From assembly GCA_017852835.1 (NCBI GenBank), contig JAFMKS010000021.1, positions 1 through 32,080 on the forward strand: DNA of 32,080 bases, given 5' to 3'. Position 1 is the first letter of the stretch. Every line of letters begins with the position of its first letter. The notes under the pieces are model-generated. The model searched no databases, was not told the DNA's origin, and saw only the letters and a program-made list of their open reading frames with translations. The translations under genes were made by a program, and so were the position numbers. Shown here piece by piece: positions 6,887-13,721 of the stretch. This stretch comes from Paracoccaceae bacterium. GTDB lineage: Bacteria; Pseudomonadota; Alphaproteobacteria; Rhodobacterales; Rhodobacteraceae.

Positions 6887-8110
6887 TCACAAATGCGTGC
6901 CTAAGGCATCAATCAATTTCGCAATATCGGCATCACTTGTATAATGCACAAAGCTCAGGCGTAACACACCATGATCGGGTTTCACGTTCATGGCCGTCAA
7001 AGGGCGCACGGCGTAAAAATCACCACCCCCCGCCATGATCCCTGCGGTTGCGAGGGTTCCGGCAAACTCTTCTGCATTGCGACCAATGTCCAAGGCGACT
7101 GTGGGCGCGCGTGCAACACTGTCCACAGGACCCAAAACACGGACATCATTGCGACCACGTAAAAATTCCATCAATGGCTCCATGCGGGCAATTTCGGCTT
7201 CTCGGAACAGTGTGTGGACAAGGGCTCCGCGATCCGGTGCGGATAAATCCGCGCCACCATGATTGGCGGCCACCGCATCAAAATAATCCACCATCCCCGC
7301 ACAGGCCGCAACCTGTGCATGATCGGGTCCTGCGGGCGTGAATTTTTTATAGAGGCTGCCACCGTTGAATGAATGGGCCTGATTGGGCAGCAATTCTGCC
7401 AATTGACGGCGCACCACCATGATCCCCTGATGGGGTCCATAGGTTTTATAAGACGAAAACATATAAATATCTGGCCCCAAATCCCCAACATTTGGGATGC
7501 CATGGGGCGCATAACTGACCCCATCCACACAGACAAACGCCCCCGCCCCATGGGCCAATGCGGTGATTTCCACAACAGGATTAATTTCGCCCACAACGTT
7601 TGAACAATGTGGAAAACATACCAAACGCACCTGATCATCCAGCAAATTCATCAGATCACTTGTGTCAAGCCGCCCTGTTTCTGGATTGATTTGCCATTCG
7701 CGCACCTCGATCCCGCGCTCGGTCAAACGCCGCCAAGCGCCTGAATTGGCCTCGTGATCTTGGTTGGTGACGATGATCGCGTCCCCTTCGTTCATCCATT
7801 CACCAAAAGCCTTGGCCAAGACATAGACGTTCTGCGTGGTTGATGGACCAAAGCTTAGCTCATCTTCATGAACCCCCATCATCGCCGACAGACGCCTGCG
7901 CGCCTCATCCATTTCCTCGCCCCCCAAACGGCTGGCGTCATAGGGGGCATAAGGTTGCACCTTGCGTTCATTATAAAAGCGAAACAGACGATCAATCACC
8001 TGACGACAGGTAAAACTGCCACCTGCATTTTCGAAAAACGATTGCCCCGCAAGCGCGGGTTCGGAAAAAGCCGGAAATTGGCTGCGGATAAAGTCAAGAT
8101 CGAGCTGCAT
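6887..8110 (-). CDS. Cysteine desulfurase-like / class V aminotransferase-fold PLP enzyme
   Basis: A 407-residue PLP enzyme of the aminotransferase class V fold, close to the cysteine desulfurase-like subgroup that is distinct from IscS and SufS. Visible landmarks are the N-terminal FFENAGGSF, the PLP-stacking His119 in NQDHEANSG, the pyridine-nitrogen aspartate in CVDGVSYAPHG (Asp196) and the Schiff-base lysine in SSYKTYGPHQG (Lys222). There is no typical catalytic-loop cysteine of IscS type that I can identify, so desulfurase activity is not assured and a lyase or racemase-like reaction is possible. It stands alone between the photolyase and a 264-base non-coding gap that holds an RNA-like fold on its upstream side. 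Confidence 0.8.
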   Translation of the reverse strand: MQLDLDFIRSQFPAFSEPALAGQSFFENAGGSFTCRQVIDRLFRFYNERKVQPYAPYDASRLGGEEMDEARRRLSAMMGVHEDELSFGPSTTQNVYVLAKAFGEWMNEGDAIIVTNQDHEANSGAWRRLTERGIEVREWQINPETGRLDTSDLMNLLDDQVRLVCFPHCSNVVGEINPVVEITALAHGAGAFVCVDGVSYAPHGIPNVGDLGPDIYMFSSYKTYGPHQGIMVVRRQLAELLPNQAHSFNGGSLYKKFTPAGPDHAQVAACAGMVDYFDAVAANHGGADLSAPDRGALVHTLFREAEIARMEPLMEFLRGRNDVRVLGPVDSVARAPTVALDIGRNAEEFAGTLATAGIMAGGGDFYAVRPLTAMNVKPDHGVLRLSFVHYTSDADIAKLIDALGTHL

Positions 8111-8374: not shown

Positions 8375-9367
8375 TTAGGCGTTTACGTCAACGACGACGC
8401 GACCCTTAACTTGTCCCTTTAGGATGTCTTTGCCCAATGCTGGCAAATCACTCAAAGTTGCGGGGTGGATCATAGCCTCAAGCTTATCCATCGGCAGGTC
8501 TTTTGCGATGCGTTCCCAGGCACGTAGGCGGTTGTCATAGGGTTGCATCACGCTGTCGATCCCCAATAGGTTCACGCCGCGCAATAGAAACGGGATAACC
8601 GTTGCAGGCAGGCCCGCGCCCCCTGCCAAACCAACCGCCGAAACCGATCCGCCGTATTTCATTTGCCCCAGCACACGTGCCAACATGTCACCACCCACGG
8701 CGTCCACACATCCTGCCCATGTTTCACGCTCGAGCGGGCGTTTAACGGTTTCGTTGATCTCTTCCCGTGGCACGATTTGGGTAGCGCCAAGGGCGCGCAA
8801 ATACTCTTCGGTTTCAGGACGTCCTGTGACGGCCGCAACCTCATACCCAAGGTTTGCTAGGATCGCTGTTGCAACAGATCCGACACCCCCCGCAGCGCCC
8901 GTTACCAAAACAGGGCCTTGATCCGGCTTCAACCCATGATCCTCAAGCGCCATAACCGCCAACATCGCGGTAAAGCCCGCGGTCCCAACCGCCATCGCCT
9001 GACGCGATGACAGACCGCTCGGTAATGGAACCAGCCAATCGGCATTGACGCGGGCCTTTTGAGCGTATCCGCCCCAATGCACCTCACCCACGCGCCAACC
9101 CGTTAGGACAACACTGTCCCCTGTTCTGTAGCGTAGATCATCCGAGCTTTCGATGGTCCCTGCGAAATCAATTCCTGGAACATGGGGATATTCGCGCACC
9201 AAACCGCCCCCTGGACCAATGCAAAGGCCGTCCTTGTAGTTTACGGTTGAATATTCAACGTTCACCACAACATTGCCTTCAGGCAGTTGATCGGTGCTGA
9301 TCTGTTCGACCGCTGCGGATGTTTTGCCGCTTTCTTCATCCTTATTGACCACTAATGCATTAAACAT
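8375..9367 (-). CDS. acuI: Acryloyl-CoA reductase AcuI (MDR family)
   Basis: An NADPH-dependent medium-chain reductase that converts toxic acryloyl-CoA to propionyl-CoA, the detoxification step after DMSP cleavage to acrylate. The 330-residue protein has the YhdH/AcuI features: an N-terminal GroES-like domain with STVNYKDGL and HVPGIDFAGTI, then a Rossmann domain with the cofactor loop VTGAAGGVGSVA. There are no zinc-binding cysteines, as expected for this zinc-free branch. A strong AGGAGG site lies five bases before the ATG, and the gene starts 17 bases after dmdA, so they form one transcription unit. This dmdA-acuI order is well known in roseobacters and supports AcuI over a general quinone reductase. 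A hairpin follows its stop codon. Confidence 0.9.
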   Translation of the reverse strand: MFNALVVNKDEESGKTSAAVEQISTDQLPEGNVVVNVEYSTVNYKDGLCIGPGGGLVREYPHVPGIDFAGTIESSDDLRYRTGDSVVLTGWRVGEVHWGGYAQKARVNADWLVPLPSGLSSRQAMAVGTAGFTAMLAVMALEDHGLKPDQGPVLVTGAAGGVGSVATAILANLGYEVAAVTGRPETEEYLRALGATQIVPREEINETVKRPLERETWAGCVDAVGGDMLARVLGQMKYGGSVSAVGLAGGAGLPATVIPFLLRGVNLLGIDSVMQPYDNRLRAWERIAKDLPMDKLEAMIHPATLSDLPALGKDILKGQVKGRVVVDVNA

Positions 9368-9384
9368 CTGATCCTCCTACTTTC

Positions 9385-10485
9385 TTAAATCCAAAATCTG
9401 TCTTTCACGCGGGCGCTGCGTTCGCCCACGCCTGTGTCTACGATTAATTCTTGGCCCGCTTCCCAATAGCCCGCATCAATCATGCCAATGGCCACGTTTG
9501 TGTTGAAATCTGGGGACCACGTGGCCGATGCGATCAGACCCACATTTTTCCCATCCACATAAACCGACCAACCGGTCGCATTATGGGGCAGATCGCCAGA
9601 ACCCGAAATTTCGATGGGACGAATTTGTCGAGGGGTGCCGTTTTCCTTTTGTGCTTCGATCACGGATTTGCCGATGTAATCCTCGGGGGAATTACAGAAT
9701 TTGGCCAAGCCCGCCTCAACAGGGGTATTTTCGCGCGTCATGTCCGAGCCGAAGGACAACAATCCGCCTTCTATCCGTTCGATCAGATTTGGACAGCCTG
9801 CGCGTACGTTCAAATCCTTACCCGCCGCCATCAAGGCATCCCACAGCGGCATGCCGAATTGCGTGCCATCCACATAGATTTCAAAGCCGCCCTGTTTGGA
9901 CCAACCAGAGCGCGCAACCACAAATTCGGTATCCATAAACGCCATGCGTTTGTAACGGAAGAAACGTATATCGCGCACATCATCCCCAAAAACACGCGAC
10001 ATCAGTTCGTCGGCCTTTGGCCCCTGCACCGCAAGTGGCGACACATCGGGTTCCACAATGTCAACATCCATCTTTGATGCAATCGCAAGCCCAAGCGCAT
10101 ATTGCAGCAAATCACCATCCGCCAATGACAGCCAATAATGATCCTGCGCCAATTTGATCGCCACAGGGTCATTCAACATGCCCCCATTATGATCACAAAT
10201 CGGCACATAGTAACACTGATCATCCGCCATGCGATCCATGTCGCGCGGACTCATCAACTTCATCAGGCGCAGGGCATCGGGGCCCTGAATGCTGACCTGT
10301 CGCTCAACGGCAACATCCCAAACCTGAACATGCTCTTTCAGGTGGCGATAATCGGCCTCATAGCTTTCAAAATAGCTAGGCAGCAACATGTGGTTATAAA
10401 CCGTATATGCCTTGGCGCCAGCCGCCTGAACACCGGCTGTAAACGGGGTGCCGCGCACGCGGCGTGATGGAACAATACCTGCCAT
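9385..10485 (-). CDS. dmdA: Dimethylsulfoniopropionate demethylase DmdA
   Basis: A cytoplasmic tetrahydrofolate-dependent enzyme that moves a methyl group from DMSP to THF, giving 3-methylmercaptopropionate and 5-methyl-THF. This is the first step of the DMSP demethylation pathway. The 366-residue protein has the glycine-cleavage T-protein (GcvT) fold. Its N-terminal PSRRVRGTPF, YTVYNHMLLP and HLKEHVQVWDV segments and the later VRAGCPNLIERIEGGLLSFG match DmdA as I remember it, more closely than ordinary GcvT. The acuI gene directly downstream strengthens the call. The ribosome site AGGAG lies seven bases before the ATG and sits inside a small palindrome (10488-10498). A stable hairpin separates it from the DUF1326 gene upstream. 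Confidence 0.87.
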   Translation of the reverse strand: MAGIVPSRRVRGTPFTAGVQAAGAKAYTVYNHMLLPSYFESYEADYRHLKEHVQVWDVAVERQVSIQGPDALRLMKLMSPRDMDRMADDQCYYVPICDHNGGMLNDPVAIKLAQDHYWLSLADGDLLQYALGLAIASKMDVDIVEPDVSPLAVQGPKADELMSRVFGDDVRDIRFFRYKRMAFMDTEFVVARSGWSKQGGFEIYVDGTQFGMPLWDALMAAGKDLNVRAGCPNLIERIEGGLLSFGSDMTRENTPVEAGLAKFCNSPEDYIGKSVIEAQKENGTPRQIRPIEISGSGDLPHNATGWSVYVDGKNVGLIASATWSPDFNTNVAIGMIDAGYWEAGQELIVDTGVGERSARVKDRFWI

Positions 10486-10487
10486 CC

Positions 10488-10498
10488 TAGGACTCCTA
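10488..10498 (-). promoter_or_regulatory. Palindrome covering the dmdA ribosome-binding site
   Basis: An eleven-base perfect palindrome (TAGGA-C-TCCTA on the plus strand) includes the AGGAG Shine-Dalgarno sequence of dmdA. Self-pairing within one strand would leave too small a loop, so occlusion of the ribosome site would need pairing with other sequence or binding of a protein. The palindrome itself is certain. Any function is inferred. Confidence 0.4.
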
Positions 10499-10516
10499 AT
10501 CCAAAGAGAAACGAAA

Positions 10517-10548
10517 ACAGAGGGATAGGTTTCAAACCTACCCCCTGT
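10517..10548 (-). terminator. Intercistronic hairpin between the DUF1326 gene and dmdA
   Basis: A nearly perfect inverted repeat of about 15 pairs (ACAG, GGG and TAGGTTT arms) lies 18 bases after the DUF1326 stop codon. On the minus strand it is followed by the T-rich TCTGTTTTCGTTTC. It has the form of an intrinsic terminator or attenuator. Only about 30 bases remain before the dmdA start, too few for an independent promoter after it, so transcription probably reads through in part, or the hairpin protects a processed mRNA end. Confidence 0.55.
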
Positions 10549-10565
10549 TTCAATTCAAAACGGGT

Positions 10566-11249
10566 TTAGCTTGGACCGTGCCAATCGATTTGACAGATCT
10601 CGGCAGAGCGGCCGTCAAAATCCCAAACGCGGCCATGGGCGCGCACACGGCCTTGGGTAGCAGTAGCGACAGTGATATCTGGACCCATCCAGTATTCTGT
10701 GTTTTTCACAACGATTTCTTCGCCCTTGTGACCAGGAACTGGAACAACCTCGCCCTGAATAACCTTGCCCACCATCAAGCGGCGTGCATTGCCTTCGGTT
10801 GTGAATTCAACAGGGGCGCGTTCTGCGCCCAAAAATTCGCTGACCAACACCTTGAACAACCCTGTTGTGCCCTTGGCCTGACCGCTAAAGATTTTAATCA
10901 ATGCCTCATAGGCGGCATAGCTTGCGCGTTCGTCAATATAGGCTGCCGCTTTCCAGTTGCCGCGCGCCATCAGGCCCGGGATTTCCAACACCAAACCGAC
11001 GTTCAAACCTGATAGGTCTTCGTCGCCATAGTGCCCTTCATCGATGCGCACACCTGCCCATGCCTGACAGTAGCCTTCTGTTGGGGCATGTTTACCCAAG
11101 GATACAACGCAGGGGCAGAACACTGTACAGTTACAGTTTAGGATCAATTCACCTTTAATCGCCCAAGGCGTTAGACCCGGATCCTTTTTCATCGCCTCTG
11201 GATGACGGCTATCAATTTTTGCAGGTACCTCTAAACGATCACTTGCCAT
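10566..11249 (-). CDS. DUF1326 domain-containing protein with CxC-x3-CxC motif
   Basis: A 227-residue soluble protein of unknown function in the DUF1326 family. The conserved NCNCTVFCPC motif puts four cysteines at residues 39, 41, 45 and 47, an arrangement suited to metal or thiol chemistry. Further cysteines occur in EGYCQAW and in ICQIDWHG at the C-terminus. No signal peptide or membrane helix is visible. The start is fixed by AAGGAG six bases before the ATG at 11249. A longer frame to 11306 would run through the end of the upstream gene. It begins ten bases after the DUF2182 gene, and the two families are typically found as a pair. A role as a metal-binding partner of the membrane protein is inference. 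Confidence 0.85.
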   Translation of the reverse strand: MASDRLEVPAKIDSRHPEAMKKDPGLTPWAIKGELILNCNCTVFCPCVVSLGKHAPTEGYCQAWAGVRIDEGHYGDEDLSGLNVGLVLEIPGLMARGNWKAAAYIDERASYAAYEALIKIFSGQAKGTTGLFKVLVSEFLGAERAPVEFTTEGNARRLMVGKVIQGEVVPVPGHKGEEIVVKNTEYWMGPDITVATATQGRVRAHGRVWDFDGRSAEICQIDWHGPS

Positions 11250-11259
11250 GATGTTCTCC

Positions 11260-12021
11260 TTAAATAAGACCAAGGGCAATGAGTGCTGCACCACACAACA
11301 AAGCATAACCCAAAGGTTTCGTTATATACGTTCCAATTTGCGGTAGCTTTTCCACCACCATTAACACAGTCGCCAGTCCCATAAATACCAAATTCATCAC
11401 ACCGCCGACAAAGGCCAGACACATCAGCGCCCAACAACATCCCAAACAGACAAGACCAAGGCGCAGACCATTGCGCCATGCCCCTTCGTCAAAATATTGC
11501 ATGAAAAAGGTAAGTGGCGCGCGGCATTTGGAGAGGCAGGCTTCTTTCACATTTGAAAACTGATAGGCCCCCGCAATTGCCAACAGAACCGCCGAGAGAT
11601 AGCGAGAGGTTGATTGCCCAAATTGATCCGCCGCACCGTAAACAAACAGCGCCATCTGCAACGCGCTTGCAGCCAACGAAAAGCCGATCCAAACAACCAG
11701 ATATCCTACCATCAATTTCCACAGGTTTGTTTGCGCCACGGCCCCCAAATCATCATAAGTCGCGAATGCAGGCAGCGCGGTGGGTGCCATCATCGCAATA
11801 CTCATCAACGACCACATAGAGAACAGGCGGAAAAATCCCGCACCATCTGGACTAACCACACAAAGCGTTGCCCAAAATTCTGCGCCGTAAATCGCCCGTA
11901 ATTCCCGCAAATCGCCCACAGACAGCGACATGGCATAAAGCACGCCCCACGCAACCAAAATCGCCCCGTAAAGGCCGATCCAGTGCCATCTCGTCATTTT
12001 GCGAATGTGTTCAGAAACCAT
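11260..12021 (-). CDS. DUF2182 multi-pass membrane protein (predicted metal-binding)
   Basis: A 253-residue inner-membrane protein with about seven hydrophobic segments. It has the DUF2182 signatures: WSLMSIAMMAPTALPAF with its Met-rich AMMxP core, then KEACLSKCRAPL, and later LGCCWALMCLAFVGGVMNLVFMG. Paired cysteines and methionines in or next to membrane helices suggest metal or redox chemistry, but the biochemical function is unknown. The ATG at 12021 (GGA eight bases upstream) is chosen because the longer frame opens with GTG at 12090 and would run across the divergent GntR start and its operator. It is the first gene of a likely DUF2182-DUF1326-dmdA-acuI unit. Confidence 0.82.
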   Translation of the reverse strand: MVSEHIRKMTRWHWIGLYGAILVAWGVLYAMSLSVGDLRELRAIYGAEFWATLCVVSPDGAGFFRLFSMWSLMSIAMMAPTALPAFATYDDLGAVAQTNLWKLMVGYLVVWIGFSLAASALQMALFVYGAADQFGQSTSRYLSAVLLAIAGAYQFSNVKEACLSKCRAPLTFFMQYFDEGAWRNGLRLGLVCLGCCWALMCLAFVGGVMNLVFMGLATVLMVVEKLPQIGTYITKPLGYALLCGAALIALGLI

Positions 12022-12042
12022 TGCGGCGATTCCAATTAATAC

Positions 12043-12071
12043 TTGCAATTTAAATGTCAGACTTTTAATTG
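12043..12071 (+). promoter_or_regulatory. Candidate promoter of the GntR-family gene
   Basis: TTGCAA (12043-12048) and TAATTG (12066-12071) are separated by 17 bases, as for a housekeeping-sigma promoter with a weak -10. The predicted start point near 12078 is at or just before the ATG at 12080, so the message would be leaderless or nearly so. The operator overlaps this promoter. Confidence 0.35.
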
Positions 12072-12078
12072 TCTGACA
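12055..12078. promoter_or_regulatory. Perfect inverted repeat, likely operator of the divergent GntR regulator
   Basis: TGTCAGAC (12055-12062) and GTCTGACA (12071-12078) form an exact eight-base inverted repeat with an eight-base AT-only spacer. Each arm contains GT-N3-AC, the core recognised by FadR/FCD-type GntR proteins, and the right arm in context (TTGTCTGACAA) fits T-N-GT-N3-AC-N-A. It lies between the DUF2182 gene and the GntR gene and covers a possible minus-strand -35 hexamer (TTGTCA). Binding there could control both directions. Confidence 0.7.
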
Positions 12079-12079
12079 A

Positions 12080-12808
12080 ATGAAAAACACACGAAATGAC
12101 GCAACGGATCTTTCGGCTCAAATCGCATCTAAAATTCGGGATTCGATTGTTGAGGGGCGATTGATTGTAAATGAGCGCCTCCCGTCTGAGGCCGAGCTTT
12201 CCGAACAATTTTCTGTCTCGCGCTCAACTGTACGAGAGGCGTTGAAACGTTTGGCGGCGCAATCGCTGATCCGCACGCAACGCGGGGCCTTTGGTGGCGC
12301 TTTTGTGAATAAGCTCAGCTATCAGGACGCCTATTCGCAAAACATCACCACATCGACCCTGTTGTTGTCGATGAATGATATTAACATTGATGTCGCCTGC
12401 GAGGCGCGCTTTGCGCTGGAACGCTCTTGTGTGCCATTGGCCTGCGCCCGGCGCAGCGAAGAGCAACTGTCCGTCATGCGCCGTGAATTGCACCGCCAAA
12501 CCTCGCCCGATCTAAGTGATGAGGAATGGTGCGCATCGGACGTGGCCTTTCACCGATCCTTTGTGGATTGTGCCCAAAACCCCGTGCTGTCCTATCAACT
12601 GACGGGCGCGGTTGAGGCGATGCAGCCGCTGATGAACATGATCACCTTCACCGCACGGTCCCGCGCCAAAATCATCAGCCACCACGCGGCCCTGATCACA
12701 TCATTGGAGACGCAGGATATTCCATTGGCGGAACGCACATTGGGCGAATTGGCCGAGTATTCCATGCAATTGGCGGCCAAGGTTTTGGCGGATCGCGAAA
12801 AAAAATAA
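12080..12808 (+). CDS. GntR-family transcriptional regulator (FadR/FCD subfamily)
   Basis: A 242-residue DNA-binding repressor or activator. The N-terminal winged helix-turn-helix spans about residues 10-75, with RLPSEAELSEQFSVSRSTVREALKRL as the helix-turn-helix. The C-terminal helical ligand domain is of the FCD type, with acidic and histidine residues that could bind a metal-assisted carboxylate ligand (for example FHRSFVDCAQN and SHHAAL). The gene diverges from the DUF2182-DUF1326-dmdA-acuI unit across a perfect inverted repeat, so it probably regulates itself and that unit, perhaps in response to a DMSP breakdown product. There is no Shine-Dalgarno sequence before the ATG, and a promoter is placed so that the mRNA may be leaderless. 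Confidence 0.85.
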   Translation: MKNTRNDATDLSAQIASKIRDSIVEGRLIVNERLPSEAELSEQFSVSRSTVREALKRLAAQSLIRTQRGAFGGAFVNKLSYQDAYSQNITTSTLLLSMNDINIDVACEARFALERSCVPLACARRSEEQLSVMRRELHRQTSPDLSDEEWCASDVAFHRSFVDCAQNPVLSYQLTGAVEAMQPLMNMITFTARSRAKIISHHAALITSLETQDIPLAERTLGELAEYSMQLAAKVLADREKK

Positions 12809-12861
12809 ACAGCGGCTGCCCATAAAATCACTTTCGGCCCTTCACATCCCCATGGATCAGA

Positions 12862-13175
12862 CATATGTTCAACGTGTCCTTCGGGACTATGGACATAAAC
12901 GCGCGCGTAATAAGCGGATCGGACCCGGGGGCGGTACCCGGCAGCTCCACCAAACAATAGGGGGCTGAAATAGGATCGACGAACGTCTAAAGGTGTTAGC
13001 TTTGTCTCGGCTGTCTGCCACCGTTATCGGCGAAAACTGTACAATTGCAAATGACAATCGTGCTCCAGTAGCAATGGCCGCGTAAGCGGTCGGAGATACT
13101 GAAATCTAAAGCCCTAGGGTCAAGCAACGCTAGGCGGGGTTACGGGGGTTCCTGGCAACAGAATACCCCCACTTC
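12862..13175 (+). ncRNA. ssrA: Circularly permuted (two-piece) tmRNA, alphaproteobacterial type
   Basis: The acceptor piece comes first and ends in a T-arm-like CCGGG/CCCGG hairpin and CAGCTCC-ACCA at 12942-12952. After an eight-base spacer the coding piece starts at 12961 with GGGGCTGAAATAGGATCGACG. GGGGCTG pairs with CAGCTCC over seven pairs and includes the G3-U70 alanine identity pair. The tag frame at 13047-13085 encodes ANDNRAPVAMAA followed by TAA. A pseudoknot-like hairpin ends near 13170. The outer limits are estimates: the 5' boundary follows an irregular hairpin at 12864-12897. The RNA rescues stalled ribosomes and tags the nascent protein for ClpXP. It stands 70-odd bases before sspB, which delivers such tagged proteins. 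The T-loop-like sequence (GGCGGTA) is not the usual TTCGANT. Confidence 0.92.
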
Positions 13176-13241
13176 ACAAAAATATCCGCTTTTGTTTCCA
13201 CAGAAATCCCTTATGGTTAAGAGAACAACAAGGAGTTTCCC

Positions 13242-13721
13242 ATGACAGATACATTGGATTACGGATCATTGATGCATCGCGCCATGCGGGGTCTGATTTT
13301 TAATGTGCTGGAACAGGTGCGCGATCACGGCCTACCTGGAAACCACCATTTCTTTATCACGTTTGATACCACGCATCCTGATGTGCAATTGGCAGATTGG
13401 CTGAAGGATCGCTATCCTGAGGAAATGACCGTTGTTATTCAGCATTGGTTTGACAATCTGGTTGTGCGTGAGGACGGGTTTTCCATCACGCTGAACTTCG
13501 GTGATCAACCAGAGCCCATTCAGATCCCATTTGATGCGATCCAAACATTCGTTGACCCATCGGTCGAATTTGGTTTGCGCTTTGAAAACCAAGATATGGA
13601 TGAGATTGAGGATGAGGCCGAGGCAGACGAGAGTGAACCGAGTGCTGACACCGCAGAGACATCAGATGAAGCACCCCGCCAAGAGGCCGAGGTTGTCTCA
13701 TTGGATCAATTCCGCAGGTAA
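13242..13721 (+). CDS. sspB: SspB-type ClpXP adaptor (alphaproteobacterial SspB)
   Basis: A ClpXP protease specificity factor that binds ssrA-tagged proteins and tethers them to the N-domain of ClpX. The 159-residue protein has the SspB fold at residues 1-115 (for example LDYGSLMHRAMRG, HHFFITFDTTHPDVQL, VVIQHWFDNL and SITLNFG, with IPFDAIQTFVDPSVEFGLRF at its end). An acidic, flexible linker of about 30 residues follows, then the short basic/hydrophobic ClpX-docking tail EVVSLDQFRR. AAGGAG precedes the ATG by six bases. It is the first gene after ssrA on the same strand, and DUF4169 and ribbon-helix-helix genes follow closely, so the three are probably cotranscribed. Confidence 0.92.
   Translation: MTDTLDYGSLMHRAMRGLIFNVLEQVRDHGLPGNHHFFITFDTTHPDVQLADWLKDRYPEEMTVVIQHWFDNLVVREDGFSITLNFGDQPEPIQIPFDAIQTFVDPSVEFGLRFENQDMDEIEDEAEADESEPSADTAETSDEAPRQEAEVVSLDQFRR

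Follow-up and report, generated by a model that had tools for sequence, protein, structure and literature searches.

The window analysed here is a stretch of 32,080 nucleotides from a Paracoccaceae bacterium (contig JAFMKS010000021.1; genome of 2.36 Mb, 82.5% complete), and its positions 8375–12808 hold a cluster in which two conserved proteins of unknown role, DUF2182 and DUF1326, are encoded together with a dimethylsulfoniopropionate (DMSP) demethylase and an acrylyl-CoA reductase. A GntR/FCD-family regulator gene (12080–12808, plus strand; PF00392, 67.6 bits against a cut-off of 27; PF07729, 63.1 against 24.3) is divergent from four minus-strand genes in the order DUF2182-DUF1326-dmdA-acuI: a DUF2182/PpoB2-family integral membrane protein of 253 amino acids (11260–12021; PF09948, 187.8 bits against 28.7), a DUF1326 protein of 227 amino acids (10566–11249; PF07040, 178.9 against 25), a DMSP demethylase of a minor clade (dmdA, 9385–10485; NF009133, 567 against 410), and acuI (8375–9367), which passes TIGR02823 (461.9 bits against 297) and, narrowly, NF051456 (441.5 against 440). 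All five genes score above curated family cut-offs and lie where a preliminary description, made from the sequence alone, had placed them: four minus-strand genes and a divergent GntR gene. As judged from relatives, DUF2182 likely starts at the ATG at 12021 and DUF1326 at the ATG at 11249, the longest open reading frames reaching 12090 (with GTG) and 11306, respectively; because the DUF2182 start is placed at 12021, the divergent control region comprises 12022–12079 (58 bp). The acuI gene lies directly 3' of dmdA with a 17-bp gap, both on the minus strand. A relative that shares this cluster is Rhodobacteraceae bacterium HIMB11, whose DUF1326 is 98% identical and which is reported to carry dmdA, dmdB, dmdC, a dmdD-like gene, dddP and dddD (PMC4148974).

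Linkage of the DUF2182-DUF1326 pair to dmdA and acuI

In a family survey of 295 genomes from 294 genera, DmdA above cut-off was found in 125, DUF1326 in 151 and PF09948 in 156; DmdA and DUF1326 occur together in 106 genomes, DmdA only in 19, DUF1326 only in 45 and neither in 125 (genome-level odds ratio 15.5, p = 1.9e-24, a value that ignores relatedness). When a DUF1326 match at most 15 kb from dmdA is taken as linked, 99 of the 125 dmdA genomes have the pair upstream of dmdA and on its strand. Ninety-one of these come from the listed matches (91/91), and the other eight, both-gene genomes (8 of the 106) with no DUF1326 among the listed matches, were confirmed by sequence. In the remaining seven both-gene genomes, no contig carries the two genes at 15 kb or less from each other; fragmented assemblies are among them, and a few of the seven may be contig breaks. 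Gene content was determined for 78 of the 98 linked loci besides the window: DUF2182 is present in all 78, acuI in 72 and GntR in 63. The preliminary description had tied the pair to dmdA-acuI and one GntR gene, and held that a pair never near dmdA in other genomes would speak against this; the survey of dmdA neighbourhoods clearly shows the opposite. The observation is real and wider than could be seen from the window alone, and the module containing DUF2182 and DUF1326 is well supported as a regular part of the locus.

A further gene belongs to the cluster in many relatives. A DinB-family gene (PF05163, 73.6 bits in the one member scanned), encoding a protein with conserved histidines, occurs in 39 of the 78 linked loci, lying after DUF1326 and ahead of dmdA in 38 of them and behind dmdA in the remaining one (L069); the window cluster is without it. 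The gap of 545–570 bp between DUF1326 and dmdA seen in many relatives was considered as a conserved non-coding stretch and rejected, as it is this gene.

The pair is also kept in genomes without DmdA above cut-off. DUF1326 loci were retrieved from 40 of the 45 such genomes, and a pair was assigned to the dmdA-cluster subtype when it had more than 50% identity to the query of that kind and DUF2182 ahead of DUF1326. Thirty-one of the 40 have this subtype, with acuI nearby in 26 (on the opposite strand in two, L354 and L364); among the five with no acuI in the stretch, three are short or broken contigs (L146, L356 and L370), and L149 and L162 look real. The other nine carry a different kind of pair, with DUF1326 first and no same-strand acuI. 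DinB genes were found in 9 of the first 20 DmdA-less loci. The tie of the pair to the acuI locus is therefore as close as that to dmdA, and its retention with acuI in 26 of the 31 DmdA-less genomes weakens a role specific to methanethiol. Several DmdA-less loci (L149, L143, L144, L158 and others) also have a gene for a BCCT (betaine/DMSP-type) transporter near DUF2182-DUF1326-acuI, which agrees with PMC3338564, where a dddT-like gene is described next to acuI.

Outside the family, 20 of the 50 DUF1326 genomes of the class were retrieved; two loci (L239 and L245) resemble the cluster, 13 have DUF1326 followed by DUF2182, one has the reverse order, and four are without a DUF2182 match. Among named organisms, the best 80 of at least 585 relatives, a sample that favours the dmdA-cluster subtype, include Roseovarius, Jannaschia, Yoonia, Roseibium, Labrenzia and Stappia, and comprise loci with DUF2182 (79), acuI (71), GntR (59), dmdA (54), DinB (34), a DmdB-like ligase (9) and SBP56 (3). 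The cluster is plasmid-borne in Marinovum and Antarctobacter.

Possible exchange of cluster parts and a putative GntR operator

Pairwise identities and identity clustering were compared over the 61 loci that have all five genes. Those of DUF1326 and DUF2182 are correlated with r = 0.78; all other gene pairs are only weakly correlated (0.06–0.26; dmdA-acuI, 0.15), so that the DUF pair is the exception. For each DUF protein, two subtypes can be told apart (identity within and between subtypes, 0.75/0.56 and 0.64/0.40), and these agree in 59 of the 61 loci. The DmdA of the window belongs to a clade of 8 of the 61, being 54–62% identical to the other 53, and the AcuI, DUF and GntR proteins of the window are, after those of HIMB11, nearest to those of L105, whose DmdA is of the common clade. 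The simplest reading of these sequence relationships would be that dmdA was replaced in place and that the two DUF genes, in a separate event, were replaced together; an old duplication followed by differential loss may also account for them.

Within the 58-bp divergent region is a dyad, TGTCAGAC-N8-GTCTGACA in the minus-strand reading, which is a putative GntR operator of the form TGTCnGAC-N8-GTCnGAC (12055–12078, without strand), lying 33 bases from the DUF2182 ATG. With up to one mismatch, it has a single match in the 82.5% complete genome, against none for a reversed-pattern control. Among the 71 GntR loci, window included, the best half-site TTGTCnGACAA near the GntR start has at most one mismatch in 58 and at most two in 68 (0.5 and 5.5, respectively, in shuffles). 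The full dyad, with up to two mismatches, is found upstream of DUF2182 in 54 of the 77 testable loci among the best 80 named ones, compared with about 1.7 when random stretches of these loci are scanned, and it tracks the regulator: 52 of the 58 loci with GntR (counted at more than 45% identity) have it, versus 2 of the 19 without (p = 3e-10). In three loci that have no DUF pair (L173, L177 and L179), GntR and dyad-type sites stand ahead of dmdA or DinB. From this pattern, we infer that GntR would control the whole unit and itself. Only one base separates the end of the dyad from the GntR ATG, a spacing that leaves no room for a ribosome-binding site, so that the GntR mRNA may be leaderless, or the GntR start may lie further downstream.

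The 80 bp between DUF1326 and dmdA (10486–10565) contain a strong hairpin with a T-rich tail (10521–10545, minus strand), terminator-like by fold computation (minimum free energy −29.6 kcal/mol, z = −3.7) and a possible attenuator or processing site, which is kept in HIMB11. With 35 bp from the hairpin to the dmdA start, there would be little room for another promoter. The DUF1326 stop abuts the dmdA start in three of nine relatives compared (L270, L271 and L281), as in coupled genes. A single transcript, attenuated in the window lineage, probably covers the unit.

One alternative to a functional tie is hitch-hiking, in which the genes would simply have been inherited as neighbours. In 39 of the 78 linked loci (counts that ignore phylogeny), the cluster is also flanked by sspB, csd, phr, rne or ccdA, as hitch-hiking would predict; the other 39, however, keep the cluster without any of those flanks, and the cluster occurs on plasmids and in Stappiaceae. 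Moreover, at one and the same place the pair and dmdA each vary without regard to the genes beside them, the dyad stands in front of the pair, and DUF1326 and DUF2182 elsewhere are mostly in the reverse gene order and without acuI. We regard hitch-hiking as distinctly unlikely.

Proposed copper handling and competing roles of the pair

PF09948, the family of DUF2182, is now named PpoB2 and described as "copper chaperone" in Pfam. PpoB2 of Marinomonas mediterranea (COG5486), a member of the same family, is reported to sit in an operon with tyrosinase (PMC2855505), whereas the partner of DUF2182 in the window is DUF1326; as no tyrosinase or other copper enzyme was found among nine window proteins, DUF2182 is not filed as a tyrosinase chaperone. 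The two proteins had been described at the outset as rich in both Cys and Met, which holds for DUF2182, a Met-rich membrane protein (8 Cys and 14 Met in 253 residues), but must be corrected for DUF1326, which is rich in Cys only (6 Cys and 5 Met in 227 residues). Cys39, Cys41, Cys45, Cys47 and Cys61 of DUF1326 are invariant in 11 diverse members, including those of Streptomyces and Sinorhizobium. In 58 aligned DUF2182 sequences, Met69, Met73, Met77, Met78, Cys166, Cys192, Cys195 and Cys196 are invariant and Cys162 is nearly so; Met73, Met77, Met78 and the five cysteines also hold in a set with Streptomyces and Sinorhizobium. The AlphaFold2 model of DUF2182 (predicted local distance difference test, pLDDT, 85.6) is nearly all helical and places Met69–Met78 and Cys192–Cys196 in long helices; its VIA-align rows (best Z 5.8, many MFS-type transporters) are within the range of common helical arrangements and were not used.

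With these features in mind, we infer that the pair binds copper and tentatively propose that it is a GntR-controlled Cu(I)-handling pair, a regular part of the acrylate/DMSP locus of roseobacters and their relatives, which protects cells in which acrylate and methanethiol put thiols under stress, a proposal that could well be correct but on which we would not insist. The locus would be written as GntR, operator and DUF2182-DUF1326-(DinB)-(dmdA)-acuI, in which the bracketed parts come and go. GntR would repress from the dyad and be released by an acrylate-derived ligand. DUF1326, presumably cytoplasmic, may bind Cu(I) through its CxCxxxCPC...C cluster and pass it to, or receive it from, the membrane protein DUF2182 through the Met and Cys residues of the latter. 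Acrylate and acryloyl-CoA would use up the thiols that normally buffer Cu(I), and the methanethiol formed by DMSP demethylation could reduce and bind copper; copper handling might hence be raised alongside acrylate removal. This purpose, guarding Cu(I) amid the disturbance of thiols by acrylate, acryloyl-CoA and methanethiol, draws on general chemical background. In a bolder form, which we consider rather doubtful, the pair would be an acrylate-induced Cu(I) arm of DMSP catabolism in roseobacters, a two-part system of membrane and cytosol that is exchanged between lineages as a unit, is under the same GntR as dmdA-acuI, and links copper status to whether DMSP is demethylated or cleaved.

Several observations weigh against the proposed Cu(I)-handling role within one regulated unit. 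The pair is dispensable: 19 dmdA genomes have no DUF1326; among four genomes of the same genus, three have DmdA above cut-off and two have DUF1326, the other two being without the pair; and 3 of the 20 fetched loci (of 26 planned) with dmdA unlinked to, or without, DUF1326 have the arrangement GntR facing (DinB-)dmdA-acuI with no pair. The four operon genes are not seamless, as the hairpin separates DUF1326 from dmdA in the window. In R. pomeroyi, where dmdA-acuI rises about 12-fold with acrylate and about 14-fold with DMSP, an acrylate-responsive promoter is reported in a 350-bp fragment ending inside dmdA (PMC3338564), so that induction of dmdA-acuI there needs no read-through from the pair. 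The structure model of DUF1326 is poor (pLDDT 46.7), the DUF2182 model has no Foldseek match below E 0.8, and no solved relative of either protein was found by sequence. No copper gene was found beside the pair among the nine window proteins scanned, nor did any of 20 neighbours at 11 DUF1326 loci away from dmdA match a copper family above a curated cut-off; one neighbour, in L351, has a sub-threshold HlyD/CusB-type match (28.0 against 30).

A non-metal role is unlikely without being far-fetched: the cysteines of DUF1326 and DUF2182 would serve as a thiol/disulfide couple or as thiol carriers, by which the pair would capture or export methanethiol, adducts of acrylate with thiols, or oxidised thiols. 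Cys clusters are present in both proteins, the chemistry of the DMSP and acrylate pathway is thiol-rich, and the DinB family, whose histidine-conserving member neighbours the pair in the linked and DmdA-less loci counted above, includes known thiol-dependent transferases. However, the member of PF09948 with a reported role handles copper (PMC2855505), DUF1326-DUF2182 pairs on Streptomyces, Sinorhizobium, Bradyrhizobium and Nocardioides plasmids have no DMSP gene annotated within 4 kb, and neither protein has a thiol-enzyme match in Pfam or NCBIfam. With modest confidence, copper handling is placed ahead of the thiol-carrier role.

Two further alternatives assign the pair to a particular client enzyme. 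In the first, the pair would deliver metal to some metalloenzyme that the operon encodes or that is induced along with it, the DinB-like protein and a DMSP lyase being examples. DinB-family proteins usually bind metals, and the gene is within the cluster in the 39 linked loci mentioned above; the other half of the loci, and the window, are without it. Cupin DMSP lyases (PF16867) do not track the pair, being present in 20 of 45 DmdA-less genomes with DUF1326 versus 13 of 35 without (p = 0.65), and in 17 of the 31 genomes of the cluster subtype (p = 0.22). We consider this metallochaperone role improbable. Tracking of DMSP lyases by the pair was accordingly rejected for the cupin lyases.

In the second, held to be highly improbable, the pair would be a chaperone that serves specifically to supply copper to the methanethiol oxidase MtoX/SBP56, which acts next after DMSP demethylation. 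MtoX is reported to be Cu-dependent (PMC5739008), SBP56 occurs in the same cluster on Marinovum plasmid pMaD9, in three of the best 80 named loci and in 2 of the 78 linked loci, and in DmdA-less genomes the pair family and SBP56 are associated (12/45 versus 13/125, p = 0.013). However, neither the window genome (82.5% complete) nor HIMB11 (99% complete), both of which have the pair, gave an SBP56 match; in dmdA genomes there is no association (65 of 106 with DUF1326 versus 10 of 19 without, p = 0.61); and MtoX often has SCO1/MauG neighbours of its own, as reported in PMC5739008. The failure to find SBP56 in these two genomes and the lack of an association in dmdA genomes led us to reject the methanethiol-oxidase chaperone as the main role. 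The earlier suggestion that the pair handles a metal or a thiol by-product such as methanethiol has thus fared unevenly: a metal role gains from the PpoB2 name and the invariant cysteines, whereas a methanethiol-specific role is unsupported, given the persistence of the pair with acuI in DmdA-less genomes and the SBP56 results.

Known systems, significance and neighbouring genes

In roseobacters, acuI was reported directly 3' of dmdA in 24 of 26 dmdA-bearing strains (Todd et al. 2012, PMC3338564), and the window agrees with this operon in having a true DmdA with acuI immediately downstream on the same strand; the main text of that paper is without the terms GntR, DUF, copper, transmembrane or hypothetical, whereas the window cluster is headed by DUF2182-DUF1326, with DinB in addition in many relatives. 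Plasmid pMaD9 of Marinovum algicola (CP010864, MALG_05024-05030) has a similar arrangement, a regulator facing DUF2182, DUF1326, an AMP ligase, DmdA and an acuI-like gene, but differs in its extra DmdB-like ligase and SBP56 and in being plasmid-borne. The record names the two proteins of the pair "(Transmembrane) protein involved in DMSP breakdown", and its annotation table shows no basis for the names. A known acrylate-responsive operon likewise has its own regulator and acuI, but the regulator is of the TetR family and the partner is a DMSP lyase instead of the DUF pair. The dmdA-acuI operon and its acrylate induction are already known, and the association of the pair with DMSP is not new to annotators, as the CP010864 labels show. 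In the literature searched, no paper was found on DUF1326 or DUF2182, or on the pair in a dmdA-acuI cluster, which may partly reflect how papers print such names. The present analysis adds how far the linkage extends, the finding that the pair stays with acuI also in genomes without DmdA above cut-off, the DinB gene as a further member, the dyad, and the joint variation of the two DUF proteins.

The main route by which bacteria process DMSP opens with dmdA, and acuI protects against a toxic by-product. If, in 99 of the 125 dmdA genomes sampled, the cluster begins with two conserved proteins of unknown role, the pathway as drawn misses a part, and studies of polar dmdA mutations or of promoters need to consider the pair. 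The data suggest an unstudied part of an important ocean sulphur pathway in many marine bacteria, put forward GntR and the dyad as candidate regulator and operator of the acrylate response, and offer a testable link between copper and ocean sulphur cycling.

Some loci contain additional genes. Nine loci have an inserted gene for a DmdB-like AMP-binding ligase, located before dmdA in L293 and L301 and after it in L325, L331, L332, L336, L337, L338 and L347, the latter group including Roseibium/Labrenzia; lying inside the cluster, it may represent the joining of the next demethylation step to the locus. A DUF4345 protein (PF14248; L065:6422-6886) is encoded after GntR on the same strand in some loci, with homologues in 12 of the best 80 named ones. 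In the window, a class V aminotransferase resembling cysteine desulfurases (6887–8110, minus strand; TIGR01976, below its cut-off) lies downstream of acuI and has a homologue in 19 of the 78 linked loci. Directly downstream of GntR is a tmRNA gene (12860–13176) with the tag ANDNRAPVAMAA, followed by sspB (13242–13721), which flanks the cluster in 23 of the 78 linked loci.

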